DNA of 64,000 bases from Burkholderiales bacterium RIFCSPHIGHO2_12_FULL_63_20 (lineage in GTDB: Bacteria; Pseudomonadota; Gammaproteobacteria; Burkholderiales; Burkholderiaceae_C), in assembly GCA_001770775.1 (NCBI GenBank), contig MESA01000011.1, forward strand, positions 5,079 through 69,078, given 5' to 3'. A program made the translations under genes and the position numbers. Under the pieces are notes generated by a model that worked only from the letters and a program-made list of their open reading frames with translations, had not been told where the DNA came from and searched no databases. Of the stretch, positions 8,142 through 43,965 are shown piece after piece; the first letter of the stretch is position 1; every line of letters starts with the position of its first letter.

Positions 8142-9068
8142 TTGCTGTCCGCCTACATCACCCACCCTGATTGCGCCCGCCACGAAATGGGCCCGCACCA
8201 CCCCGAGTGCCCCGAGCGACTGGCCGCGATCAACGACATGCTGCTGACCAAGGGTCTGCTCGACTACATGGCCCCCTACGACGCCGAGCCGGCCACCATC
8301 GACCAGCTGGAACGTGCCCACTCGGCGCTGTATGTGCAGGAGCTGTTCGCCGCCTCACCCACCGAGGGCTACCACCACGTCGACCCCGACACCAGCATGA
8401 ACCCGCACACGCTGCAGGCGGCCCTGCGCGCCGCGGGCGCCGTGGTGCAGGCCACCGACCTGGTGCTGGGTGGCAAAGCCCCGTCAGCCTTCTGCAACAT
8501 TCGCCCGCCTGGTCACCATGCCGAGCGCGACTCGGCGCAGGGCTTTTGCTTCTTCAACAACGTGACGGTGGGCATCCGCCACGCGCTGGACGTGCATGGT
8601 CTGGAACGCGTGGCCCTGATCGATTTCGACGTGCACCATGCCAATGGCAGCGAAGACATCCTGCGCGGTGACGAGCGCGTGCTGATGTGCTCCATCTACG
8701 AAAAAGGCCTGTTCCCCGACTCGGGCGATGCCCACGACGGCCCCAACATGGTCAACGTGGGCCTGCCCGCCCGCGTGGGCAGCGACGCCTTCCGCGAGGC
8801 CGTGGTCGAACAATGGCTGCCGGCGCTCGATGCCTTTGCGCCCCAATTGATCTACATCTCGGCCGGCTTCGACGCCCACCGCGAAGATGACATGGGCAAC
8901 CTGGCGTTGGTCGAAGCAGACTATGCCTGGGTCACCCAACAAATCATGCGCCTGGCCGACCGCCACTGCCGGGGCCGGGTCATCTCCTGCCTGGAAGGCG
9001 GCTACGCCCTGAGCGCACTCGCCCGCAGCACCGCCGCCCACGTCCGTTCACTCATCGGCGCCGACTGA
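8142..9068 (+). CDS. Histone deacetylase-family protein (class II-like), putative protein or small-molecule deacetylase
   Basis: A 308-residue zinc-dependent deacetylase-fold enzyme. Motifs in order: HPECPERLAAI near the N-terminus (typical of bacterial class II HDAC-like proteins), RPPGHHAERDSAQGFCFFNN (active-site His pair), LIDFDVHHANGSED (zinc Asp/His), SAGFDAHREDDMGN (zinc Asp) and EGGYAL (catalytic Tyr). The start is a TTG at 8142 with AGGAG at 8131-8135; translation from it gives the expected N-terminus. The gene ends five bases before the Pat-type acetyltransferase gene, implying one transcript. This context suggests that it removes acyl groups from lysines modified by its neighbour, an inference not proven by sequence. 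Confidence 0.88.
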   Translation: MLSAYITHPDCARHEMGPHHPECPERLAAINDMLLTKGLLDYMAPYDAEPATIDQLERAHSALYVQELFAASPTEGYHHVDPDTSMNPHTLQAALRAAGAVVQATDLVLGGKAPSAFCNIRPPGHHAERDSAQGFCFFNNVTVGIRHALDVHGLERVALIDFDVHHANGSEDILRGDERVLMCSIYEKGLFPDSGDAHDGPNMVNVGLPARVGSDAFREAVVEQWLPALDAFAPQLIYISAGFDAHREDDMGNLALVEADYAWVTQQIMRLADRHCRGRVISCLEGGYALSALARSTAAHVRSLIGAD

Positions 9069-9073
9069 CACCC

Positions 9074-11767
9074 ATGGACCAACACTTCCTCACCCCCCTG
9101 TTCGCCCCCACCTCGGTCGCCATCTTTGCCGGCCCGTCCGACGACCCCGAACAGCTGACCGAACAAGCCCGCCTGCTGCACCCCGCCTTGCGAGCTCAGC
9201 GCTTCACCGGCACCTACCGCTTCATCGACATCCGCGCCACCAGTGGCACCTTGGCCGATCTGGCCTCGGCCAAGTCCGACCTGGCCATCATCGCGCTGCC
9301 CTTCGCCGACATCGCCCCCGCCATCGAACTGGCCAGCCGCATGGACTGCACCGCCGTGATGGTGCTGTCCTCGGGCATCAGCGCCGAGCAGGCCGAGGTG
9401 CTGCACAAGGTCGCAGATCAGGCCGGCGTGCACCTGCTTGGCCCCAACGGCCTGGGCATCCAGCGCCCGCCCTCGCAGCTCAATGCCAGCGTGGCCGGCC
9501 CCTTGGCGCGCAGCGGCAGCCTGGCCCTGGTGTCGCAGTCGGGCTCACTGACCTCGTCCATGCTCGACTGGGCGGCCAGCAACGCCGTGGGGTTCTCATC
9601 GGTGGTGTCCCTGGGACCCCATTCGGCGCTCGACATCGCCGACGTGCTCGACTTCCTGGCCGCTGACCGCCAGACGCACAGCATCATCATCTACATGGAG
9701 GGCATCCACAACGCCCGCCGCTTCATGAGCGCGCTGCGCTCGGCGGCCACCGCCAAGCCGGTGGTCATCCTCAAGGCCGGTCGCAAACGGGCGGGCAACG
9801 AGGCCGCGCAAACGCACAGCAGCGCCATCGTCGGCAGTGATGACGTCTTCGACGCGGCCCTGCGCCGCGCCGGGGCCGTGCGCGTGCAGTCCTTCGTGGC
9901 GCTGTTCTCGGCCGCCAAGTGCCTGGCCTCGCGCTACCGGCCAGTGGGCCGTCACCTGGCCATCGTCACCAACGGCGGTGGGCCCGGCGTGCTGGCGGCT
10001 GACTGGGTCACCGAGATCTCGCTGGAGCTGGGCCGTCTGTCCCCCGACTCGGTCGCCGCGCTGCAGCCGCAGTTGCCGCCGAGTGCCTCCCTGACGGACC
10101 TGATCGACCTGTCGCAGAACGCCGGCCCCGAGCATTACCGCGTTGCCCTGCAGGCGGCGGCCAAGGACCGCCAGATCGACGGCGTGCTGGTCATTTTCTC
10201 GCCCAAGATCGGGGTGGACGCAGCCGAGGTCGCCAAGGTGCTGGCCGAGGTCCACCGCACCATGGGCAAGCCCTTGCTCACATGCTGGATGGGGGAGGCC
10301 TCGGTGGGCGAAGGCCGTGCCGTGCTCAAGAGCGCCGCCATCCCCACCTTCCGCACGCCGGAAGCGGCCGTGGGCGCCTTTGGCAACATCGCCAATTTCG
10401 CCCAGAACCAGCTGCTGCTGCAACAGACGCCACCACCGGCCTCGACGCTGGCCGAGCCCGACATCGAAGGCGCCCGCCTCGTCATCGAGAGCGTGCTGAC
10501 CGAGCGCCGCAAGGTGCTCACCGAGATGGAGTCCAAGACGCTGCTGGCGTCCTTCCACATCCCGGTCACCGAAACCATCCTGGCGCGCAGTGCGCCCGAG
10601 GCGATGATGATCGCGATGCAGCTGGGCTTCCCGGTGGCGCTCAAGATCGACTCGCCCGACATCACCCACAAGTCCGACGTGCAGGGCGTGGTGCTCAACG
10701 TGATGAACGGCACGCAGGCGCGCGACACCTTCACCGACATGGTCGAGCGCGTGCGCCGCCTGCAGCCCACCGCCCGCATCAATGGCGTGACGGTGCAGAA
10801 GATGGCGCGCAACCGCCGCGGGCGCGAGGTGCACATCGGCGTGGTCACCGACGATCCCTTCGGCCCGGTGATCGTGTTTGGCGCGGGCGGCACCATGATC
10901 GAGCTGATCAACGACCGCGCGATGGAATTGCCGCCGCTCAACCAGTTCCTGGCCCGCCACCTGATCAACCGTGCCCGCGTGGCCGAGACCCTGGGCGACT
11001 GGCGCGGTGCCAGCGCGGTGAACATGGACGCGCTGGAACAGCTGCTGCTGCGCGTGTCCGAGATGGTGTGCGAGCTGCCGCAACTGCGTCAGATGGACAT
11101 CAACCCCATCATCGTGGACGAAGACGGGGCCGTGGCCGTGGACGCGCGCATCGTCATCGACCATGCGCCGCAGAACATGACGGGTCGGCCCAACGCCTAC
11201 CAGCACCTGTCTATCCTGCCCTACCCGGCGCGCTACGAGCAGGTCTGGCCACTGCGGGGCGGTGGCGAGTACACGATCCGCCCGATCCACCCCGACGATG
11301 CGCAGATGCTGCAGACCTTTGCCAAGGGCCTGTCGTCCGAGAGCCGCTATTTCCGCTTCGCCTCGGCCATGACGGAGCTGCCGGCCAACATGCTCTCGCG
11401 CTTCACCCTGATCGACTACGACCGCGAGATGGCCCTGGTGGCCGTGGTGAAGGAGCGTCACGCCAACGACGACGGCGAGATCATGGAAACCGAACGCGTG
11501 GTGGGCGTGTCGCGCTACATCACCAACCCGGACCAGTCGACCTGCGAGTTCTCGCTGGTGGTGGCCGACGACTTCGCCGGCAAGGGCCTGGGCTCACGCC
11601 TGATGGAAAGCATCATGGAGGTGGCGCGCGAAAAAGGCCTGAGCGAGATCATCGGCCTGGTACTGGTCAACAACGGCAACATGCTCAAGTTGATGCGCAG
11701 CCTGGGCTTCACGGTCAAACCCAATCCGGACGACCCGGACTTCCGCCTGGTCACCCATCAGCTGTGA
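9074..11767 (+). CDS. Pat-type fusion: NDP-forming acyl-CoA synthetase domains plus C-terminal GNAT acetyltransferase
   Basis: An 897-residue relative of PatZ/YfiQ, the enzyme that acetylates lysines of proteins such as acetyl-CoA synthetase. Domain order: CoA-binding Rossmann and succinyl-CoA-ligase-like regions (about residues 1-460), an ATP-grasp domain (about 480-700, beginning LTEMESKTLLASF), then a GNAT domain (about 733-890) that starts YTIRPIHPDDAQ and contains GKGLGSRLMESI, the acetyl-CoA binding loop. Unlike the enteric enzymes, which are known to lack it, a His (residue 248, in AAQTHSSAIVG) stands where ADP-forming synthetases carry the phosphorylated His. It follows the deacetylase gene by five bases. 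Transcription may run on until the terminator-like hairpin at 11778. Confidence 0.9.
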   Translation: MDQHFLTPLFAPTSVAIFAGPSDDPEQLTEQARLLHPALRAQRFTGTYRFIDIRATSGTLADLASAKSDLAIIALPFADIAPAIELASRMDCTAVMVLSSGISAEQAEVLHKVADQAGVHLLGPNGLGIQRPPSQLNASVAGPLARSGSLALVSQSGSLTSSMLDWAASNAVGFSSVVSLGPHSALDIADVLDFLAADRQTHSIIIYMEGIHNARRFMSALRSAATAKPVVILKAGRKRAGNEAAQTHSSAIVGSDDVFDAALRRAGAVRVQSFVALFSAAKCLASRYRPVGRHLAIVTNGGGPGVLAADWVTEISLELGRLSPDSVAALQPQLPPSASLTDLIDLSQNAGPEHYRVALQAAAKDRQIDGVLVIFSPKIGVDAAEVAKVLAEVHRTMGKPLLTCWMGEASVGEGRAVLKSAAIPTFRTPEAAVGAFGNIANFAQNQLLLQQTPPPASTLAEPDIEGARLVIESVLTERRKVLTEMESKTLLASFHIPVTETILARSAPEAMMIAMQLGFPVALKIDSPDITHKSDVQGVVLNVMNGTQARDTFTDMVERVRRLQPTARINGVTVQKMARNRRGREVHIGVVTDDPFGPVIVFGAGGTMIELINDRAMELPPLNQFLARHLINRARVAETLGDWRGASAVNMDALEQLLLRVSEMVCELPQLRQMDINPIIVDEDGAVAVDARIVIDHAPQNMTGRPNAYQHLSILPYPARYEQVWPLRGGGEYTIRPIHPDDAQMLQTFAKGLSSESRYFRFASAMTELPANMLSRFTLIDYDREMALVAVVKERHANDDGEIMETERVVGVSRYITNPDQSTCEFSLVVADDFAGKGLGSRLMESIMEVAREKGLSEIIGLVLVNNGNMLKLMRSLGFTVKPNPDDPDFRLVTHQL

Positions 11768-24907: not shown

Positions 24908-25720
24908 TTAGACGGCCTTGCGACGGCGACCTGCGACGGCGGCACCGGCCAGGCCCATGCCCAGCAAGGCCAACATGGCGGGCTCTGGCACATCGTTGCC
25001 TGGATCACCAATGACCACACCGCCGACGGTGATGCCATCAAAGGCCAGCGCCGAGTCATAGGAGGTATCCAGCCAATTGGTCACCCCGAACTCCAGGATG
25101 TAGTTACCCGCAGCGGCGATCTGATAATTGGACTGAACCCAACCCGTGAAGCCGCAGCCACCGGAATAGCAACTACCCGAATCCGAGCCCAGCGCGGCCC
25201 AGGCAGGCGCGCCGCCGATGATGGGCACCGAGCTCGGGGTCAGGGTGGCCGTCGGTGCAGGCATGCTGAAGCCCGGCACGATGCTGCCGCTGGGGGCGGT
25301 GCGTGCAGTGAACAGCAGGGCCACTTGGGCTTGAGCGCTGTCCAGCAGGCGGGCCCAGGCGTAGTCGGCGTAGCCGGCACCGTCAGAGGTCACGTAGTTG
25401 AAGAAAAACTTCAGGTCATCGCCTGCGGCAGCCGAGAAAACCACCGAGCGCAGTGTCGAGCCGTCGGTGCCGCTTCCGGACCCGCCCACCCCAGGCAAGG
25501 CCACGCCGTTGACGCCATTGGCGGTCGACACATAGCCGTACTGGCTACCGCCAGAAGGTGCCAAGGTCACGACCCCGTTGGCGCCCAAGGTGCCAGCGTT
25601 GCCGACAGCCGTCCAGCCCGCAGGCAGGCCGCCATCAAACAATGCCGCCGACGCTTGACCAGCCAAACCGAACACCAGACCCAGCGCCCACACCGACGCC
25701 TTGATTTTGCTCACAGCCAT
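24908..25720 (-). CDS. PEP-CTERM sorting-domain protein
   Basis: An exported protein of 270 residues. The N-terminus (MAVSKIKASVWALGLVFGLA, ending ASA) is a signal peptide. The C-terminus has VPEPAMLALLGMGLAG followed by a hydrophobic helix and RRRK, the PEP-CTERM tripartite signal that exosortase cuts. The middle is a strand-rich, Gly/Ser/Ala-rich region with a CYSGGCGF pair of cysteines. Known PEP-CTERM proteins go to the cell surface or exopolysaccharide matrix and have a role in floc or biofilm formation. The ATG at 25720 has AGGAG just upstream. A sigma-54-type promoter motif lies about 100 bases upstream of the start. Confidence 0.9.
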   Translation of the reverse strand: MAVSKIKASVWALGLVFGLAGQASAALFDGGLPAGWTAVGNAGTLGANGVVTLAPSGGSQYGYVSTANGVNGVALPGVGGSGSGTDGSTLRSVVFSAAAGDDLKFFFNYVTSDGAGYADYAWARLLDSAQAQVALLFTARTAPSGSIVPGFSMPAPTATLTPSSVPIIGGAPAWAALGSDSGSCYSGGCGFTGWVQSNYQIAAAGNYILEFGVTNWLDTSYDSALAFDGITVGGVVIGDPGNDVPEPAMLALLGMGLAGAAVAGRRRKAV

Positions 25721-32953: not shown

Positions 32954-33466
32954 TCAAGATTTTTCACAGCGGCGCTGCCCGACAAGCAGCACCACCCCAA
33001 CAACTTTCAAAACCAGCACCAGGGTCACCAGCAGCGCCACCCAGTTCAGCGGTTGAACCACTTGAGGCGCCATGGCCAGCAGGGCACAGATCAGCCCCAG
33101 CTTGAGCACCTCCCAGATCAGAAGGCGCCCCACCCCGCGCCGCGCATTGCGTCCGAACACCCCGCGCGCCATCAGCAGACCGGGCACCACGACCACAGCC
33201 GTCGCGTACAGCGAGGACCATAAGGCAGACACATCACGCGACAGACCACCCCAGAGGAGCGCGACCAACACACCGAACAGCGTTTGCGCGGCCAGAACCT
33301 GCCACACAGACATCGACGGGTGCTTGGCGATCAGGGCTTGCGCCTCTTCTCGCGTCAGCGGCTCAACGGGTGGATCGATGTCTTTGGACCAGTCGGACAC
33401 ATCGAAGTCGGCATCGTGTACCGCTTTCTCGCCGCCTCGTGGCCTGGAACTTTGAGGCGTGGACAT
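32954..33466 (-). CDS. atpI: ATP synthase subunit I (AtpI)
   Basis: 170 residues; known relatives help assemble the c ring. A charged N-terminal half (to about residue 50, with PPVEPLTREEAQ) precedes four hydrophobic segments typical of AtpI. First gene of the operon, 15 bases before atpB. The long N-terminal extension is common in Burkholderiales versions. Confidence 0.9.
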   Translation of the reverse strand: MSTPQSSRPRGGEKAVHDADFDVSDWSKDIDPPVEPLTREEAQALIAKHPSMSVWQVLAAQTLFGVLVALLWGGLSRDVSALWSSLYATAVVVVPGLLMARGVFGRNARRGVGRLLIWEVLKLGLICALLAMAPQVVQPLNWVALLVTLVLVLKVVGVVLLVGQRRCEKS

Positions 33467-33552
33467 GTCGCTCGCTTAACAGCTGTTGGTGGGGCGCTTT
33501 TGGCGCCGACCTGGCACAAACACACCGACCCGGATGTCGGCAAAACCTAAAG

Positions 33553-33581
33553 ATTATACGCAGTAACCCGCACGGATCCAA
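33553..33581 (-). promoter_or_regulatory. Sigma-70 promoter of the atp operon
   Basis: On the minus strand TTGGAT, a 17-base spacer and a perfect TATAAT lie about 90 bases upstream of atpI, predicting a leader of about 80 bases. No gene is visible in the 33467-33767 gap apart from this promoter and the upstream region of the plus-strand acyltransferase gene. Confidence 0.75.
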
Positions 33582-33767
33582 GCGACCTGTCCGATTTGCT
33601 GCCGCGAGCCCCTCGAATGCGGCGAATCCGTTCAACACCCCCCATCCGAGGGAATCCCTGGGGCAAGCCCGATGGCTGCTGAGAACACGGGTCGTCATGC
33701 TGAGTACAACCTTGTCGACGGCCTTCCCTGGTGCCCTCGATGTCAGTACTCAGGTGGAGCCTCCAGC

Positions 33768-34631
33768 ATGACCTCGACAACCCGCAAAGAAAGCGTCAGC
33801 ACCTTCTACCGCCCGATACAGGGCGTCACGGTCACGCACATCAAGCAGATGTATGACCTGTATGCCTCGTTCTATGAGAACACCTCACTGGACGTGTTCC
33901 TGCACGACCTCAGCAAGAAGTCCGGTGTGATCCTGGTGACGCGAAAGTCGGACGATCAGGTTGTCGGATTTTCGACACAGACTTGCTTTGATCTGCAGGT
34001 CGAAGGGCGCCGGGTCCGCGGCATTTTCAGTGGCGACACCATCATCGAGCCCGCTTACTGGGGCAACAACGCACTGGCCTCCACCTTTCAACGCCGGGTC
34101 GTGATCGAGCGGTTCAAGCATCCGTTCACACCGTTCTACTGGTTCCTGATCTCCAAGGGCTACAAGACCTATCTGCTGTTGACCAACAACTTCTACAACT
34201 ACTACCCCAACGTGAACGGGGGTGACGAGCGGTACAGACGCGTCACCGAGGCCTATTGTGAGGCCCTGTTCCCGGAGGCCTTCGACCGGGAGCGCATGCT
34301 GCTGGACTTCGGAAACGAGTATGTGTGCCTCAAGGGCGACGTGGCCGAGATCACGCCCGAACTCAAGGCCGCCAACCCGCACATCGCGTTCTTCGAAAAG
34401 GTCAACCCGGAGTGGCGTCGTGGCACCGAGGTGCCTTGCGTGGGCTCGCTCGACTATGAAAGCGTGCTGCGCTCTTGCATCGACATGCCGCTGAAGTGGG
34501 TACGCAAGCATCTGCTGAAAACGCATCGACCGGCCGGGCTCGACCTGACGTCGACGACGCGAACCGGGGCCTCTCCGTGGCCCGACACGGATGTGATGCA
34601 CGACGCGCTGGACCGCCAGCGGGCATCCTGA
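33768..34631 (+). CDS. GNAT-like acyltransferase-fold protein
   Basis: 287 residues, unnamed family. A stretch VRGIFSGDTIIEPAYWGNN (about residues 83-101) resembles the strand-loop of GNAT enzymes and is echoed by YYSGDTRVDPFYRRRG in the protein two genes downstream. Before it lie HIKQMYDLYASFYENTSLD and LVTRKSDDQVVGFSTQ, plausible early GNAT elements. After it come aromatic-rich segments (PFTPFYWFLISKGYKTYLL, NNFYNYYPNVNGG) that could hold a hydrophobic substrate. The usual acetyl-CoA loop is weak, so the donor may differ. It looks lower in GC than its neighbours, which may indicate acquisition. The stop is two bases before the GH3 gene start; the start ATG at 33768 has a modest GGTGGAG upstream. 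Confidence 0.65.
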   Translation: MTSTTRKESVSTFYRPIQGVTVTHIKQMYDLYASFYENTSLDVFLHDLSKKSGVILVTRKSDDQVVGFSTQTCFDLQVEGRRVRGIFSGDTIIEPAYWGNNALASTFQRRVVIERFKHPFTPFYWFLISKGYKTYLLLTNNFYNYYPNVNGGDERYRRVTEAYCEALFPEAFDRERMLLDFGNEYVCLKGDVAEITPELKAANPHIAFFEKVNPEWRRGTEVPCVGSLDYESVLRSCIDMPLKWVRKHLLKTHRPAGLDLTSTTRTGASPWPDTDVMHDALDRQRAS

Positions 34632-34633
34632 GC

Positions 34634-36262
34634 ATGGGGATCGGCACCAACCTCGGGCACCAACTGCTGCGCGTTCTGGTCGCACCAGGGCGGCGCCGTT
34701 TCGAACGCCATCTGAACGATCTGGAGGGCATGCAGCGCGCGCGTCTCGCACGCTGGCTGGCCGCAGCGGCACGCGCCCCGGAAGGACAGCGTCGCGGCAT
34801 CCGTGCCGACTGGTCGTGGGAAACCTTCGCGAGCGAGCTGCCGGTGAGCAGCTACGCCGACCATGCGGAGGTGATTGCTCGTCAGCGCGAACGGCAGCAA
34901 CCCTTGTTGATCGACTCGCCGGTGATGCGCTACCAGCCCACCAGCGGCTCTACGTCAGCGGTCAAGTGGGTGCCTTACACCAAGCTGTTTCTGGAAGAGT
35001 TCGATGAGGTCATCAGCGCCTGGGTGAGCGACCTGTACAGGCAGTTCCCTCGTCAAAGCAGCGGCACGCATTACTGGTCGCTGTCGTGGGTGCCCACCGA
35101 GATGCGCGCCCAGACCACGGGCGACCTCAATGACGACATGCAACTGCTGTCGTGGGGCAAGCGCCTGCTGGCCTACCTGACGCAGGCGGCGCCGCAGGAG
35201 ATCGCGCTGGCCGAGACCTCGGAAGACTCACTGTTTGCCACCATCGCCTGGCTGGCGTCGGACGCCTCGCTGGGGTTCATCTCGGTATGGAGCCCCACCT
35301 TCGGCCTGGGCTTGCTGGAGCAGATGGCGACCTGGCGCGAGGAGCTGGCCACCGCCTTGTCGCGCGGCGACTGGGGCGCACGCACCCCCCGTATGGCGGG
35401 CCAGCCCTGCCCGACCTCGGCGCGCGCCGCGCGCTTGCTGCGCAGCTGGGACGGTCAGATGGACGCCGCCTTCTTTCAGCAACTGTGGCCCCGGCTGAAT
35501 GTGATCAGCGCCTGGGACACCGCCGCAGCGGCGCCCTGGGCGCGGCAGTTGCAGGCGCAGCTGCCGCAGGCAGGGTTTCAGGGCAAGGGACTGTGGGCCA
35601 CCGAAGGGGTGGTGACCTTCCCGTTCCAAGGTCGCTACCCGCTGGCCTACACGAGCCATGTCTATGAGTTCATCGACGCCCACGATGGGCGCGTGCTGCC
35701 GCCCTGGGCGCTGCGCGAGGGACAGGACGTGATCCCGCTGCTGACCACCGGTAGCGGCCTGGCCCGCTACCAGATGAGCGATGTCTTGCGCGTGGAGGCC
35801 CCATTGGGGCAGGTGCCCTGCTTCACGTTTTTGGGGCGCAATGACGGGGTGGACCTGGTGGGCGAGAAGACCAGCGCCACCACCGCCCAGGCGGTGCTTG
35901 ATGGCCTGCAGTTGCAAGGTGCCCTGCCTGTGACCTTGCTGGCCCTGGATGAGGCACGGGGCCGCAGCCCCGGCTACGCCTTGCTGGTCGAGTGTGCGGC
36001 CGATGCCCCCCGTGGCGCCTTGCAGCGGGACCTGGCCGACCAGGTTGAGAAGGCGCTGCAGGGCCATTTTCATTACAAGCTGGCACGCGATCTGGGACAA
36101 CTGCAGCCCGCCGCCTGCGTGGCCCTGCCCCGCATGCGCGACCTCTATCTGGCGCAGTGCCGCGAGCGCGGGATGATCGAAGGCAACATCAAGATCGAGC
36201 CGCTGCGGCACTGGTCCGGCGCGGCGCCCGCCCCCCTGAGACAGGCGCTGGACATCGTCTGA
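34634..36262 (+). CDS. GH3-family acyl-adenylating ligase
   Basis: 542 residues resembling the GH3 family, known mainly from plants, where members adenylate jasmonate, auxin or benzoates and join them to amino acids. Motifs seen: RYQPTSGSTSAVKWVPYT (ATP/AMP-binding motif 1, about residues 100-117), LGFISVWSPTFGLGLLEQM (about 210-230), ATEGVVTFPFQG (about 320) and ARYQMSDVLRVE (the YRxxDV-like motif, about 377-388), then FLGRNDGVDLVGEKT. The C-terminal small domain follows. It should activate a carboxylic acid with ATP; the acid and nucleophile are unknown. It starts two bases after the GNAT-like gene with no clear ribosome site, suggesting translational coupling. A second GNAT-like gene follows after 32 bases. 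Confidence 0.82.
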   Translation: MGIGTNLGHQLLRVLVAPGRRRFERHLNDLEGMQRARLARWLAAAARAPEGQRRGIRADWSWETFASELPVSSYADHAEVIARQRERQQPLLIDSPVMRYQPTSGSTSAVKWVPYTKLFLEEFDEVISAWVSDLYRQFPRQSSGTHYWSLSWVPTEMRAQTTGDLNDDMQLLSWGKRLLAYLTQAAPQEIALAETSEDSLFATIAWLASDASLGFISVWSPTFGLGLLEQMATWREELATALSRGDWGARTPRMAGQPCPTSARAARLLRSWDGQMDAAFFQQLWPRLNVISAWDTAAAAPWARQLQAQLPQAGFQGKGLWATEGVVTFPFQGRYPLAYTSHVYEFIDAHDGRVLPPWALREGQDVIPLLTTGSGLARYQMSDVLRVEAPLGQVPCFTFLGRNDGVDLVGEKTSATTAQAVLDGLQLQGALPVTLLALDEARGRSPGYALLVECAADAPRGALQRDLADQVEKALQGHFHYKLARDLGQLQPAACVALPRMRDLYLAQCRERGMIEGNIKIEPLRHWSGAAPAPLRQALDIV

Positions 36263-36294
36263 GCCCCGCCCCTTTCGCTTTTCACCCCTTCCCC

Positions 36295-37392
36295 ATGACC
36301 ATTTCCATCCGTCTCGGCACGCCGTCCGACAACCCTCGCATCCAGGACCTGGTCAGCAAGATCACGATGCCGGGGCCGGCCGAGCTGTGCTTTCAGCGCC
36401 AGCCAGATTTCTTTGTGGGCGCCAAGGTGATTGGCGACACGCATGTGCTGGCCGTGGCCGAGGACTCGGAGCGCCCCGAGGTGCTGGCCGGCCTGACGAT
36501 GATCTCGGGCCGCACCCTGTACATCAACGGTCAGCCCAGGCGGGTGTACTACTCGGGCGACACGCGAGTGGACCCTTTTTACCGGCGCCGCGGCATCGCA
36601 GGCCAGTTGTTCATCGAGCAAAAGAGCCACCGCAGCACCGAGGACCTGCTGCAAGGCGTCGTCATCAAGGGCAACACAGCCCCGCTGGATGCCGCTGCCA
36701 ACATGGCCGATGGCATCTTGTTCCAGTACTGGGTGACGCACACCATCGAGACCAGCTTCCTCTTTGTGCGCAAGCAGACGCCCCGCATCCCGGCGGGCGT
36801 AACGATCCGCGTCGCGACCGCGGCCGATGTGCCGCAGATGCAGGCCTTTCAGGACCGGGAGGCGCCGCGACGCCACGGCTACCCGGTCTATGACTTTCAG
36901 AAGCTGATGGCGGGCGACCCGTATTACGCGGGACTGCGCATCAGCGACTATGCGCTGGCTTGGCGCGGCGACACGCTGATCGGCATGCTGGCCGGTTGGG
37001 ATCAGAAGGCCTACAAGCAGACGCGGGTCATGGGCTTCAAGCCGGCGATCAAGGCCCTGCGCCCGCTCTACAACCTGTATGTCGGCCTGGTGGGCGGCTT
37101 CAAGCTGCCCCCGATCGGCGGAGCCCTGAACTACCTGACGCTTTACAACGTGCTGATCGCGGGCGATGACCCGGCCGTCTTCCAGGCACTGATCGACTGG
37201 ATGATGGCGCACCAAGGCCAACGCTATGACGCGCTGGCCACGGCCGTGACGCATGGGGATCCACTGGTGACGGTACCGCGCGGCTACAAGCGCCAGAAGT
37301 TGCTGTCGGAGAACTTCTGGATGAGCTATGGCGAAGACCCGCGCCCCGGCATGGACGCACGGCCGCTGTACGCCGAGCTGGGACGCCTGTAA
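36295..37392 (+). CDS. GNAT-family acyltransferase
   Basis: 365 residues, longer than a single GNAT domain. The N-terminal half (to about residue 180) carries the GNAT pattern: IRLGTPSDNPRIQDLV at the start, then VYYSGDTRVDPFYRRRGIAG, where RRRGIAG is the acyl-CoA pyrophosphate loop (about residue 100). The C-terminal half repeats a GNAT-like start (TIRVATAADVPQMQAFQD) and looks like a second, degenerate domain. It follows the GH3 gene closely on the same strand. I infer that it transfers an acyl group to, or from, the product of the GH3 enzyme, but nothing in the sequence fixes the substrate. Confidence 0.75.
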   Translation: MTISIRLGTPSDNPRIQDLVSKITMPGPAELCFQRQPDFFVGAKVIGDTHVLAVAEDSERPEVLAGLTMISGRTLYINGQPRRVYYSGDTRVDPFYRRRGIAGQLFIEQKSHRSTEDLLQGVVIKGNTAPLDAAANMADGILFQYWVTHTIETSFLFVRKQTPRIPAGVTIRVATAADVPQMQAFQDREAPRRHGYPVYDFQKLMAGDPYYAGLRISDYALAWRGDTLIGMLAGWDQKAYKQTRVMGFKPAIKALRPLYNLYVGLVGGFKLPPIGGALNYLTLYNVLIAGDDPAVFQALIDWMMAHQGQRYDALATAVTHGDPLVTVPRGYKRQKLLSENFWMSYGEDPRPGMDARPLYAELGRL

Positions 37393-37404
37393 GGCGCGCG
37401 CCCC

Positions 37405-38814
37405 TCAGGGGTGAGACTGGGCGTCTGCGCCCTGCACCAGGCGCGCCAAGGTGGCATCGAAGCGTAGCAAGAAGTCGCTCATCTCGGCATGGGTGGTTTC
37501 CGACAACTGCCAGGCGGTGGGCACGAACAGGCGGCCGTTCATCTCGGTGAGCACGGGCAGCGGTGAGATGCTGTTGACGACGCCAAACAGCTGCACCGCG
37601 CGCAGGCGCGCCCCGGGCTCGTTGACGGCATTGGCATCGCCCAGGCTGGTCGCGTGGCAGCTGATGACCGGGAAGCGTTGCGCCCGCTTGAGTTGCACGC
37701 CGATGTGCCCGATGAGGGTGCGGCCCAGCCAGGGCACCAGCTCGTCCCACAGATAGGTCCAGCACATCTCGCGGCGCTCGTAGCGCGCCTGCCCTTCGCG
37801 GATGCTGGCGTCCACCGAACGCAGCCGATCCGGCCAGGGCTTGTGGGCATCCTGCTCGATGACCAGGAAGGCGCCAACGTAGTTGCCCCACAGCGGGCCG
37901 TGTCCAGCCTGAGGTGGGTAAAAGCGCCGCAGGTTCACCGAGATGCGGATGACGGCGGCGGCCTGTGGATCGTCCGGGGCTTGGTCCAGAAAGGTCTGGG
38001 CGAGCGCGGCGATCAGCAAGGTGTTGAGCGAAACGCCCGATTGCCGGGCCAGCGCCCGCAGCTCGGCCGTGCCGGTGGACACCTCGTGCAGGCGCAAGCC
38101 GGTGGTGGAGTAGTGCAGCCCCAGCCGGGTGGGCACCTGCTGGATGTGCAGCATGGCCAGCCGGCGCGACTCGGCCACCTTGTGCCGACGCGCCTTCAAC
38201 AGTTGGCGCGGCCACTGCCACCAGCGATGCGGCGCGATCGAGCCGATCATGGCCGGCGCCTCCAGCGGCATGGGTTCGAGCGGCTGGCCGTTGAACCCGC
38301 GCAGGATCTGGCGCACGAGTTGCACCATCGTCATGCCATCGGCCAGGATGTGGGGCACACCAAACAGCAAGGCGGGCTGCCGGGGGTGTGGGACAAAGCG
38401 CACGCGCAGGCCCAGGCCGCGCTCCAGCGGCAGCACCTCGTTGATCAGCTGTCGCTGCCAGGCCTCCACCTGCTCACGATCGTCCAGATCCACCTGGGTC
38501 TCGACGCGAAAGGCCCAGTCAAAGAGCTGGTCGACGATGTCGTCGTCGGGCAGGATGCGCAGATGGTAGCGGTGCCAGCCCGGCTCCAGCTTGGCGCGCA
38601 GCTTGGGGTAGACCGTGACCAGCTCGCGCATCACGCGGCGCACCTGATCGACCGCCACGGGCCCATCCAGGCGGATCAGGTAGGGCTGGACCATGGTGGC
38701 GGCCAGGCCCTCGATGGCGGCATAGCCGTGTTCGGTGCGGTTGAGGGAAACGATGTCGCCGGTGAGGAAAGCCATGCCTGGGATGCTGGCAGAGTCCAGC
38801 GGGATCCGGCTCAT
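37405..38814 (-). CDS. Condensation/WS-DGAT-like acyltransferase
   Basis: 469 residues. The motif FGVPHILADGMTMVQLV (about residue 165) matches the HxxxDG active site shared by condensation domains, wax-ester synthase/DGAT and related CoA-dependent acyltransferases. Later segments NTLLIAALAQTFLD, RISVNLRRFYPP and LWGNYVGAFLVI fit the second half of that fold. The first residues, MSRIPLDSASIPGMAFL then GDIVSLNRTEHGYAA, are a plausible substrate-tunnel region. It probably joins an acyl-CoA to an alcohol or amine. It is convergent with the GNAT gene, 12 bases apart, and forms the fourth member of the GH3 neighbourhood. Start options are ATG 38814 and ATG 38775. Confidence 0.75.
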   Translation of the reverse strand: MSRIPLDSASIPGMAFLTGDIVSLNRTEHGYAAIEGLAATMVQPYLIRLDGPVAVDQVRRVMRELVTVYPKLRAKLEPGWHRYHLRILPDDDIVDQLFDWAFRVETQVDLDDREQVEAWQRQLINEVLPLERGLGLRVRFVPHPRQPALLFGVPHILADGMTMVQLVRQILRGFNGQPLEPMPLEAPAMIGSIAPHRWWQWPRQLLKARRHKVAESRRLAMLHIQQVPTRLGLHYSTTGLRLHEVSTGTAELRALARQSGVSLNTLLIAALAQTFLDQAPDDPQAAAVIRISVNLRRFYPPQAGHGPLWGNYVGAFLVIEQDAHKPWPDRLRSVDASIREGQARYERREMCWTYLWDELVPWLGRTLIGHIGVQLKRAQRFPVISCHATSLGDANAVNEPGARLRAVQLFGVVNSISPLPVLTEMNGRLFVPTAWQLSETTHAEMSDFLLRFDATLARLVQGADAQSHP

Positions 38815-38884: not shown

Positions 38885-40000
<1,116 letters not shown>

Positions 40001-41922: not shown

Positions 41923-43197
41923 ATGTCAGAGCCACGGGCCCCCTCCATCGACCACCCCTTCGACCATCCTTTCGAGCGTGGCATGCGCAACCGCCGCGCC
42001 GCCCTGGGCGATGCCTGGGTGGACAAGTCCGTGGCCAAGGCCAATGCCTTCAACGCCGCCTTCCAGCATTTCATCACCGATTACGCTTGGCATGGCGTCT
42101 GGGGTCGCCCCGGCCTGGACTGGAAGACCCGCCGCGTGCTGGTGATGGCCGTGACCTGCGCCCTGGGCCGCTGGGACGAGTTCGAGATCCACATGCGCGG
42201 CTCGCTGACCCCGGGTAACGCCCACACGCTGACCCCTGCGGAGGTGCGCGAAGCCTTGTTCCAGATCGCCATCTACGCGGGTGTGCCGGCGGCCAACACG
42301 GGCTTTTCCAAGGCCCTGGGCATCATGCGCGAACTGGGCATCGAGCCCCCACCCCACCCTGCCGATCAATCCTGGCACCCCGGCGTGGGCCGTTCGGTGT
42401 TCACCCGCAGCCGCCCGAAACTGCACGCCACCGTACGCGACGCCCGCAGCGCCACGCCGCGCCACACGGTCATCCTCAGCCACGCGCTGGGACAGGACAG
42501 CTCGATGTGGGACCTGGTGGCCAATGAGCTGGCGGCCACCTGCCGGGTGATCTGCCCGGACACGCGCGGACATGGCCGCTCTGCCCTGCCCACCGGCACC
42601 CTGAGCCTGGACGATCTGGCCGATGACGCCGCCCGCCTGATCGACGAGGTGGCCGGTGGCGAGCCGGTGATCTGGGTGGGCCTGTCGATGGGCGGCCTGA
42701 TCGGCCAGGCCCTGGCGCTACGCCACCCGGGCAAGCTCAAAGCCCTGGTGCTGGCCAACACCCCCAGCGGCTACGACGCCGCCGGACGCGCCGCCCTGCA
42801 GCAACGCATCCAGAGCGTCGAGCACGGCGGCATGGAGGCCGTGGCCGAGGGCACGATGGAGCGCTTCTTCAGCGAGGCCTTCCGCGCCAGCCAGACCGCG
42901 GCCGTGCAACGCCATCAACGCCTGCTGCTGGCGACCGACCCCGAGGGCTACACCGCCTGCGCGGCCGCCTTGGGCGAGGCGGACCTGACGGCACACCTGG
43001 GCCAGATCCGGGTGCCGACCCTGCTGCTGGCCGCGAGCGAAGACCCCAGCACGCCACCGGTCACCATGCAGGCCATGGCCACCGCCCTGCCGCACGCTGA
43101 ATGTGTGACGCTGCCCGGCTGCGCCCACCTGAGTGCGGTGGAACAACCCTGGGCCTTCACCGATCTGGTTCAAGCCTTCATCGATCAGGTCGGCTGA
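41923..43197 (+). CDS. Fused carboxymuconolactone decarboxylase-like and alpha/beta-hydrolase (PcaC-PcaD-like) protein
   Basis: 424 residues. The N-terminal part (about 1-140) is a CMD/PcaC-like domain: FITDYAWHGVWGRPGLDW, RRVLVMAVTCALGRWDEFE, then the histidine-containing IHMRGSLTPG, and an AIYAGVPAANTGF helix. The C-terminal part (about 175-424) is an alpha/beta hydrolase with GLSMGG (nucleophile Ser), ASEDPSTPP (Asp) and GCAHLSAVEQP (His), like beta-ketoadipate enol-lactonase PcaD. Known PcaL fusions have the order PcaD-PcaC; here the order is reversed. It may act on protocatechuate-derived intermediates, but no other pca gene is near. The preferred ATG is 41923; 41887 is also in frame. 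Confidence 0.85.
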   Translation: MSEPRAPSIDHPFDHPFERGMRNRRAALGDAWVDKSVAKANAFNAAFQHFITDYAWHGVWGRPGLDWKTRRVLVMAVTCALGRWDEFEIHMRGSLTPGNAHTLTPAEVREALFQIAIYAGVPAANTGFSKALGIMRELGIEPPPHPADQSWHPGVGRSVFTRSRPKLHATVRDARSATPRHTVILSHALGQDSSMWDLVANELAATCRVICPDTRGHGRSALPTGTLSLDDLADDAARLIDEVAGGEPVIWVGLSMGGLIGQALALRHPGKLKALVLANTPSGYDAAGRAALQQRIQSVEHGGMEAVAEGTMERFFSEAFRASQTAAVQRHQRLLLATDPEGYTACAAALGEADLTAHLGQIRVPTLLLAASEDPSTPPVTMQAMATALPHAECVTLPGCAHLSAVEQPWAFTDLVQAFIDQVG

Positions 43198-43281: not shown

Positions 43282-43965
43282 TCAGGCTGCCTGGCGGCGA
43301 CGCGCCCACACCAGGCCGACCAGCCCCAAGCCCATCAGGGCGTAGCTGGCGGGTTCGGGCACAGCCGTGACCAGCACGGGAGCCCCCCCCACGAAGTTCA
43401 CCGTGTTGCCCAAAGCGGCCAGGCCATAGGTGCCGCCCACATTGCCCAGGCTGAGCATGATGGGGGTTTGCTGTGCAATGGTGGTCAAGGTGGCCGCGCT
43501 CAGGCCGGCGCCGGTGAGCGTCAACACAGCCGACTGGCCTTCGGCCAAGCTGCTGCCCGCGAAATCGAGATTCCACGTGTAGGCGTAGCCAATGTCCTTG
43601 ACGATGGGCGTGGCGCTGTAGCCCGCCCCGGCCGCCAGTGACGCGCCGGACAGGTTGCCCAGGGTCCCACTCGGCCCCTTGAGCCACAAGACATCCACGA
43701 AGTTGCCGGCACTGGAGAGGGCCGCGAACGTGTGGCTGTTGTGTTGAAGTGCCAACTGCACGCCGTTGCCACCAGCCAGATCGCTGATGGTCAGCTTGGC
43801 CACACTGTAGTTCAGTGTTTTGGTGTCGAAGGGGTTGTCAGCCGTGGCGGTGTTGAAGAAGGTCTTGAAGTCGATGGTGTAGCTGTCGGCCCAGGCCGAT
43901 GAGGACACCGAACCAAGCACGGCCAACGCTGCAGCCACCATGGTCTGTCGGCAAAGTTGGTTCAT
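43282..43965 (-). CDS. PEP-CTERM sorting-domain protein
   Basis: 227 residues. The signal peptide is MNQLCRQTMVAAALAVLGSV followed by SSSAWA, and the C-terminus has VPEPASYALMGLGLVGLVWA then RRR, the exosortase signal. The mature part is strand-rich and Gly/Ser/Ala-rich, with phrases such as YTIDFKTFFNTATADNPFD and SYTIDF-like starts common in FxDxA/FxxxxTD-type secreted proteins. AAGGAG lies seven bases before the ATG at 43965. Unlike the first PEP-CTERM gene, I see no good sigma-54 motif upstream. It is divergent from rep. Confidence 0.88.
   Translation of the reverse strand: MNQLCRQTMVAAALAVLGSVSSSAWADSYTIDFKTFFNTATADNPFDTKTLNYSVAKLTISDLAGGNGVQLALQHNSHTFAALSSAGNFVDVLWLKGPSGTLGNLSGASLAAGAGYSATPIVKDIGYAYTWNLDFAGSSLAEGQSAVLTLTGAGLSAATLTTIAQQTPIMLSLGNVGGTYGLAALGNTVNFVGGAPVLVTAVPEPASYALMGLGLVGLVWARRRQAA

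Follow-up and report, generated by a model that had tools for sequence, protein, structure and literature searches.

What might a bacterium produce with a GH3-family ligase encoded between two acyltransferases of the GNAT fold and alongside a further acyltransferase bearing the HxxxDG motif? The question is raised by a stretch of 64,000 nucleotides from contig MESA01000011.1 of Burkholderiales bacterium RIFCSPHIGHO2_12_FULL_63_20 (the window, by which we mean that whole stretch), where GNAT1, GH3, and GNAT2 follow one another on one strand and the HxxxDG gene converges upon them. An earlier interpretation of the letters alone (the sequence-only reading) had proposed that these genes together could build an acylated amide. 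On the evidence assembled below, we regard it as practically certain that the GNAT1-GH3-GNAT2 trio is a real functional unit, and we judge evenly balanced the proposition that the block is a conserved cassette that makes and exports an N-acylated, lipid-like amide.

Recurrence of the trio and of its neighbours

Within Aquabacterium, the genus of the window, the GH3 gene was found in 39 of the 42 genomes and in all 31 of those of good quality, with one of the 39 (G323; G and L are our handles for genomes and loci) having only a divergent type of 32% identity and another (G308) only a fragment at a contig edge. GNAT1 precedes GH3 in all 21 genus loci (from 21 genomes), and GNAT2 follows it in 20, the remaining locus (L027) being cut by the contig end. 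We then kept 80 GNAT1 loci, the best of 477 relatives obtained by scanning named genomes with the GNAT1 alignment, whose species overlap with those of the 42 genus genomes. GH3 stood beside GNAT1 in 69 of these and GNAT2 in 67, both downstream on the GNAT1 strand; the two GH3 loci devoid of GNAT2 stop at a contig end, and in L121 the GNAT2 lies at such an end and may be partial. The gene caller applied to loci other than the window missed genes, recovering GNAT1 in only 19 of 33 Aquabacterium-type loci, and the neighbour counts for the 69 loci rest on tblastn.

Among the hosts are Aquabacterium, Alcanivorax, Pseudomonas benzenivorans, P. segetis, Thalassolituus, Agitococcus, and Acinetobacter sp. 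NIPH 298, together with other Moraxellaceae, in which family 48 of 199 sampled genomes (about a quarter) have the GH3, the best 30 loci all with both GNATs. The ligase was present in 10 of 299 genomes of the family sample (4 of them from the window's genus), PF03321 in 17 of 300 genomes of the order sample, and a GH3-profile match in 17 of 369 genomes of a Gammaproteobacteria sample, whose centre, G629, had been picked for having the block. GNAT1 lay within 4 of the 16 other GH3 loci of the order sample, loci that extend only 1.5 kb past the match, and within 7 of the 17 gammaproteobacterial ones, G629 included, so that not all bacterial GH3s belong to this block. The co-occurrence check that the sequence-only reading had suggested was thus run, and the trio recurred in Burkholderiales, Alcanivorax, Pseudomonas, Thalassolituus, and Moraxellaceae; since the same block is kept across the genus and in other lineages, we rejected chance adjacency of its genes.

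An HxxxDG protein (ACYLTRANSFERASES) occurred near 49 of the 69 GH3 loci, in 24 as the window type (COND) and in 25 as a shorter type (c6), which two types are related (hhalign probability 93.9, E 1.6e-7), the motif being invariant in 16 sequences of c6. The window-type gene, found in 24 of the 33 Aquabacterium-type loci, is kept less strictly than the trio: in L068, L089, L092, and L098 hemE comes next and the HxxxDG gene was not detected (in L092 about 2 kb carry no assigned gene), and the remaining five such loci are cut short or end ahead of hemE. Neither a pump nor an HxxxDG protein accompanies the block in 9 loci, among which only L068 and L089 extend at least 4 kb downstream of GH3.

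Exporter genes adjoin the block in 44 of the 69 loci, namely 27 RND, one MMPL-type (RND-like), 13 ABC-2, and 3 MFS pumps, with the type assigned by a Pfam check of one example each. All 44 share the strand of the trio; 43 start 1.2-3.5 kb after GH3, and the one in L146 lies just upstream of the trio. The pump varies with the lineage: 13 Aquabacterium loci have ABC-2 with HlyD; Alcanivorax and several Moraxellaceae have RND; and MFS is found with HlyD in two Pseudomonas and, along with an outer-membrane channel, in Acinetobacter sp. NIPH 298. The genes of 10 among the 17 wider Moraxellaceae loci run membrane fusion protein, MFS, GNAT1, GH3, outer-membrane channel, GNAT2. That three unrelated pump superfamilies should stand on the same strand at one biosynthetic block speaks more strongly than anything else for a secreted product.

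These pump genes belong to the EmrAB and RND types, but differ from the usual members in adjoining a biosynthetic block and, in those 10 Moraxellaceae loci, in having the channel gene inside it. A predicted network for A. baumannii (PMC5997985) has the GH3 protein F911_01944 as a neighbour of an outer-membrane channel protein, along with F911_01941 (efflux), 01943, and 01946, which grouping fits the Acinetobacter arrangement of the block. According to PMC10812440, the EmrAB-like pumps AmfAB and AmfCD of A. baumannii are encoded in operons without a channel gene and made no contribution to antibiotic non-susceptibility; to link either of them to the block would be a guess. An AraC-type regulator gene lies upstream on the opposite strand in 27 non-Aquabacterium loci (one example having the AraC helix-turn-helix and Arabinose_bd domains), and an AraC gene some 8 kb upstream, scored in six Aquabacterium loci, is probably unrelated. 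Near the regulator, 18 loci of Alcanivorax, Agitococcus, and related hosts also have a gene family (e.g., L100:6604-7596) whose checked example matches the AdeT1/2 solute-binding protein.

GNAT1 and GH3 recur, moreover, at 24-35% identity with other neighbours. Alongside the trio, L047, L049, and L050 have genes for fatty-acid desaturases of two kinds, for a Rieske oxygenase, and for a member of the Asp/Arg-hydroxylase family (proteins typed by Pfam in L047 and by similarity in the other two), with a PAP2 gene in L049 and L050. L054 combines GNAT1, a Rieske-type gene, GH3, and, by eye, FabA/FabB-like genes; in L057 some 7 kb separate GNAT1 and GH3, and the companions are a fatty-acid hydroxylase and an AurF-like gene (the AurF match being below the cut-off in the relative L056); and GNAT2 was not found in either locus. 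At L052:9071-17568, GNAT1 and GH3 are followed by four related genes interleaved with GNAT2, one of which, checked in Pfam, is a B12-binding radical SAM protein, so that this locus may be a variant with radical chemistry. The desaturases, hydroxylases, Rieske oxygenases, and radical SAM proteins point to a lipid-like substrate. The sequence-only reading is upheld in part; the functional signal comes mostly from the exporters and tailoring enzymes of the relatives, which were not visible to it. Two further observations concern such surroundings: genes that by eye resemble those of fatty-acid synthase (of ketosynthase and FabA type), close to the block at L193:694-1926 and L054:4279-6131, and, in L065, a distant type bordered by genes of the Rieske oxygenase and fatty-acid desaturase kinds, which is the only GH3 match of G323, a genome placed in the window's genus.

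Chemistry suggested by the four proteins

The window GH3 matches PF03321 in its N-terminal part (2.4e-31, 109.6 bits), PF23571 in the centre (2.4e-11, 44 bits), and PF23572 at the C terminus (8.8e-5, with 23.6 bits that equal the cut-off of 23.6 exactly). Its motifs are TSGSTSAVK (residues 103-111), WATE (321-324), and GLARYQMSD (375-383); in 28 sequences T103, G105, S106, K111, T323, E324, Y379, D383, and K520 are invariant and S104 is kept in at least 90%, K520 being the C-terminal lysine that has a role in GH3 enzymes. The nearest solved structures by sequence are plant GH3s, whose chains the profile matches with a best E of 1.4e-16, over partial stretches for most of them. With the plant acyl acid amido synthetases GH3.15, GH3.5, GH3.12, and JAR1 the window protein has the GH3 domains and adenylation motifs in common, but the similarity is low and the window enzyme belongs to a bacterial block with acyltransferases and, in relatives, pumps. 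With those motifs kept, adenylation of an acid and its joining to an amine, as the sequence-only reading had proposed, would be the natural interpretation, and one for which a bacterial precedent exists. In L032, L034, L035, and L036 we also noticed GH3 domains in frames of 862-889 aa, GNAT1 being absent within the locus, which frames are possible GH3 fusions.

The precedent is OlsH, described in 2025 (PMC12493201), a GH3-like enzyme of a planctomycete that uses ATP to form N-acyl-ornithine from ornithine and a free fatty acid; lipid synthesis by a bacterial GH3 is therefore not in itself a novelty. The OlsH product was obtained in cell-free extracts, but living E. coli did not yield it. In a comparison of motifs by eye, the motif-1 serine that is essential in OlsH aligns with S104, although motif 1 of the window protein is shorter by one residue. 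OlsH of Singulisphaera acidiphila shares its operon with an acyltransferase, OlsI, as the window ligase does with others, and both systems probably begin with the ATP-dependent conversion of a free acid to an amide. The operon reported there, however, comprises olsH, the methyltransferase gene olsG, and olsI, without GNATs, HxxxDG protein, or exporter; and in the block, as judged from Pfam and the neighbours without a direct search with the OlsI sequence, no OlsI-type alpha/beta-hydrolase O-acyltransferase was found. The only alpha/beta-hydrolase among ten Pfam-scanned neighbours, at 41983-43197, is fused to a carboxymuconolactone decarboxylase domain, and we rejected membership in the OlsI type.

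The same paper reports more than 7500 bacterial GH3 matches, almost 90% of them in Bacteroidota, and describes bacterial GH3s as widespread and possibly productive of other amino lipids (PMC12493201); its main text mentions neither GNAT nor Acinetobacter nor Alcanivorax. The assertion that GH3 enzymes are sparse in bacteria consequently holds for this order, with its 17 genomes in 300, but not for bacteria overall. Similarly, the assertion that no such bacterial pathway had been described stands for this gene set, on which no paper was found among the listed matches of searches in the open-licence full text of PMC, preprints excluded, but not for bacterial GH3 lipid synthesis.

For the two flanking proteins the label GNAT-like, also given from the letters, is borne out by AlphaFold models that match GNAT structures in Foldseek searches and that have a single fold in GNAT1 (predicted local distance difference test, pLDDT, 85.6; alignment of 46 sequences) and a tandem one in GNAT2 (pLDDT 92.3; 34 sequences). 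Among the 50 matches listed for each model, GNAT1 resembles GNATs such as AAC(2') and Eis-like enzymes, with E down to 2.2e-6 and a TM-score of about 0.35 on the query and 0.5 on AAC(2') targets, and GNAT2 resembles tandem GNATs and N-myristoyltransferases, with E down to 6.5e-13.

GNAT1 has only a TLD match of E 0.1 in Pfam and no usable name in NCBIfam, its profile gave only chance-level matches to PDB sequences, and, that TLD match excepted, neither Pfam nor NCBIfam yielded any family at E up to 1, N-acyl synthases of the LuxI or OlsB-FeeM type included. The R/Q-x-x-G-x-G/A loop for acetyl-coenzyme A (acetyl-CoA) was not recognized by eye, there being no conserved R/Q three residues ahead of the Gly; the loop position is occupied by an invariant W98-G99. 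The window's own genome has a single GNAT1 match, and paralogues with GH3 and GNAT2 not detected in the locus, mostly from Aquabacterium, were noted at L101, L106, L110, L114, L116, L117, L119, L124, L138, L140, and L145.

GNAT2 has only sub-cutoff GNAT matches in Pfam (best 6.1e-4), together with a CoA-type loop, recognized by eye in its N-terminal half as RRRGIA in the window and RGG in the consensus of the relatives. Its fold match to the mycothiol synthase MshD, to the tandem GNAT of the clavulanic acid pathway, to glucosamine N-acetyltransferase, and to N-myristoyltransferases is long, with TM-scores mostly of about 0.4-0.6 on the query, but the identity is 8-15% among the matches listed, and GNAT2 has no assigned family.

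The HxxxDG protein exceeds the cut-off for the Pfam Condensation family (3.8e-8; 32.9 bits versus 30.6) and falls below that for PapA_C (27 bits versus 30); H155, D159, and G160 are invariant in 11 sequences, and a nonribosomal peptide synthetase (NRPS) structure is matched at 1.3e-6. The invariant motif and the Condensation match are common to PapA and NRPS condensation-domain acyltransferases, from which the window protein differs in standing alone: by eye, no carrier protein or synthetase was found among the called window neighbours of its gene.

A proposed product and its competitors

On the strength of its family, its motifs, and the OlsH example, the GH3 would activate a carboxylic acid with ATP to an adenylate (a free fatty acid being the likeliest substrate) and then convert that intermediate into an amide with an amine or amino acid. 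Fold and motifs suggest that GNAT2 would transfer an acyl group from a CoA thioester to the conjugate or to a precursor of it, that GNAT1 would perform a second acyl transfer from a donor perhaps other than acetyl-CoA, and that the HxxxDG protein might form a further ester or amide; the order of the steps after GH3 is a guess. The product would then be exported through a pump that differs by lineage. A bolder formulation, which we consider possible but doubtful, is that the GNAT-GH3-GNAT core of hydrocarbon-degrading Gammaproteobacteria, Aquabacterium, and Acinetobacter makes secreted amide lipids of a class so far undescribed, be they surfactants, signals, or metal-binding amphiphiles, that dedicated pumps were recruited repeatedly from unrelated superfamilies, and that GNAT1 is a new type of GNAT not using acetyl-CoA. 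Were that true, some pumps annotated as multidrug efflux would exist in order to export the product of the block.

Several results weigh against the cassette. The distances among the trio proteins correlate (r of 0.88, 0.91, and 0.94; 50 loci), but recR and acyl-CoA dehydrogenase-like neighbours taken as controls correlated with the trio almost equally (0.91-0.96; 14 and 16 loci), so that co-divergence reflects mainly shared descent and no special tie, and we dropped it as evidence. GNAT1 has no GH3 neighbour in 11 of the 80 kept loci, and must therefore have another use too. No exporter was found in 25 of the 69 GH3 loci, several of which are cut short, though many of the Aquabacterium ones are not; the count of 44 stands without a matched control for pumps near random operons; and in 7 of the 17 wider Moraxellaceae loci none of the queried pump genes was present within the stretch of at most 15 kb, one of the seven (L187) having GNAT2 upstream instead. 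The window block itself has neither an adjoining exporter nor a tailoring enzyme inside it, and the window genome contains nothing closer to the Aquabacterium ABC permease than a match of 28% identity, so that export in this species would proceed by another pump or not at all.

Part of the same evidence would suit detoxification, in which harmful carboxylic acids would be coupled to an amino acid by the GH3 and acetylated by the GNATs, and the pump would expel the product. Both GNAT folds resemble drug-acetylating enzymes (AAC(2'), Eis), multidrug-type pumps adjoin the block in relatives, and many of the hosts are hydrocarbon degraders; plant GH3s, furthermore, conjugate acids that include auxinic herbicides (PMC12493201). 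The HxxxDG acyltransferase and the desaturases and hydroxylases of the distant versions nevertheless fit the building of a product better, and the two A. baumannii EmrAB-like pumps, which may or may not adjoin the block, caused no pump-specific decrease in antibiotic susceptibility (PMC10812440); we thus deem this explanation unlikely. Membrane amino-lipid synthesis after the manner of OlsH/OlsI, with a product that stays in the membrane and pumps that are lipid transporters or bystanders, appears distinctly unlikely to us: a bacterial GH3 does start ornithine-lipid synthesis (PMC12493201) and the window locus has no pump, but the pumps recur at the block in relatives, the block lacks an alpha/beta-hydrolase, and PF13444, which covers OlsB-type N-acyltransferases, is matched three times in other parts of the window's own genome.

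An acylated signal, sensed by the AraC-type regulator that stands upstream in so many loci, would be in keeping with the GNAT fold, which LuxI-type signal makers share; yet no regulator is found among the neighbours of the window block (atpI, and the HxxxDG gene with hemE), nor does GNAT1 match the signal-synthase families of Pfam or NCBIfam, so that we hold this very unlikely. Conjugation of auxin or jasmonate in association with plants, for which the plant GH3s as nearest solved structures might speak, we find scarcely credible and rejected as a main role, in that a plant source is not evident among the related genomes, most of which have no stated source, and the matches to the plant enzymes span partial stretches for most chains.

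The proposed cassette for an N-acylated amide would give a concrete, testable function to an orphan block whose GH3 is as widespread in the genus, and in about a quarter of the sampled Moraxellaceae genomes, as counted above, and it suggests a physiological role for the neighbouring pumps of multidrug-efflux type. Bacterial GH3 chemistry would also extend from OlsH, the single demonstrated case that we found, to a different architecture with several acyltransferases and export, and the desaturases and Rieske oxygenases that accompany the distant versions suggest that several related products exist.

The block in the window

The four genes and the gaps of 2, 32, and 12 bases that separate them (GNAT1/GH3, GH3/GNAT2, and GNAT2/HxxxDG) were confirmed from the open reading frames of the window, whose features are given in the table. 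A promoter scan of the stretch between atpI and GNAT1 found no sigma-70-like promoter.

Features of the block and its flanks (positions in the window)
Feature	Position	Strand	Description
atpI	32954..33466	-	ATP synthase genes side; flank before GNAT1
Intergenic stretch atpI (-) / GNAT1 (+)	33467..33767	.	expected place for the block promoter
GNAT1	33768..34631	+	287 aa; single GNAT fold; no Pfam family
GH3	34634..36262	+	542 aa; GH3-family adenylate-forming amide ligase
GNAT2	36295..37392	+	365 aa; tandem-GNAT protein
HxxxDG acyltransferase	37405..38814	-	469 aa; condensation/PapA superfamily; convergent with the trio
hemE	38885..40000	+	flank beyond the HxxxDG gene

Elsewhere in the window, two proteins with a PEP-CTERM motif are encoded at 24908-25720 and 43282-43908, and the genes at 1090-2034, 8187-9068, and 9074-11767, which lie in one region, look by eye like two members of the histone-deacetylase family and a large acetyltransferase gene.

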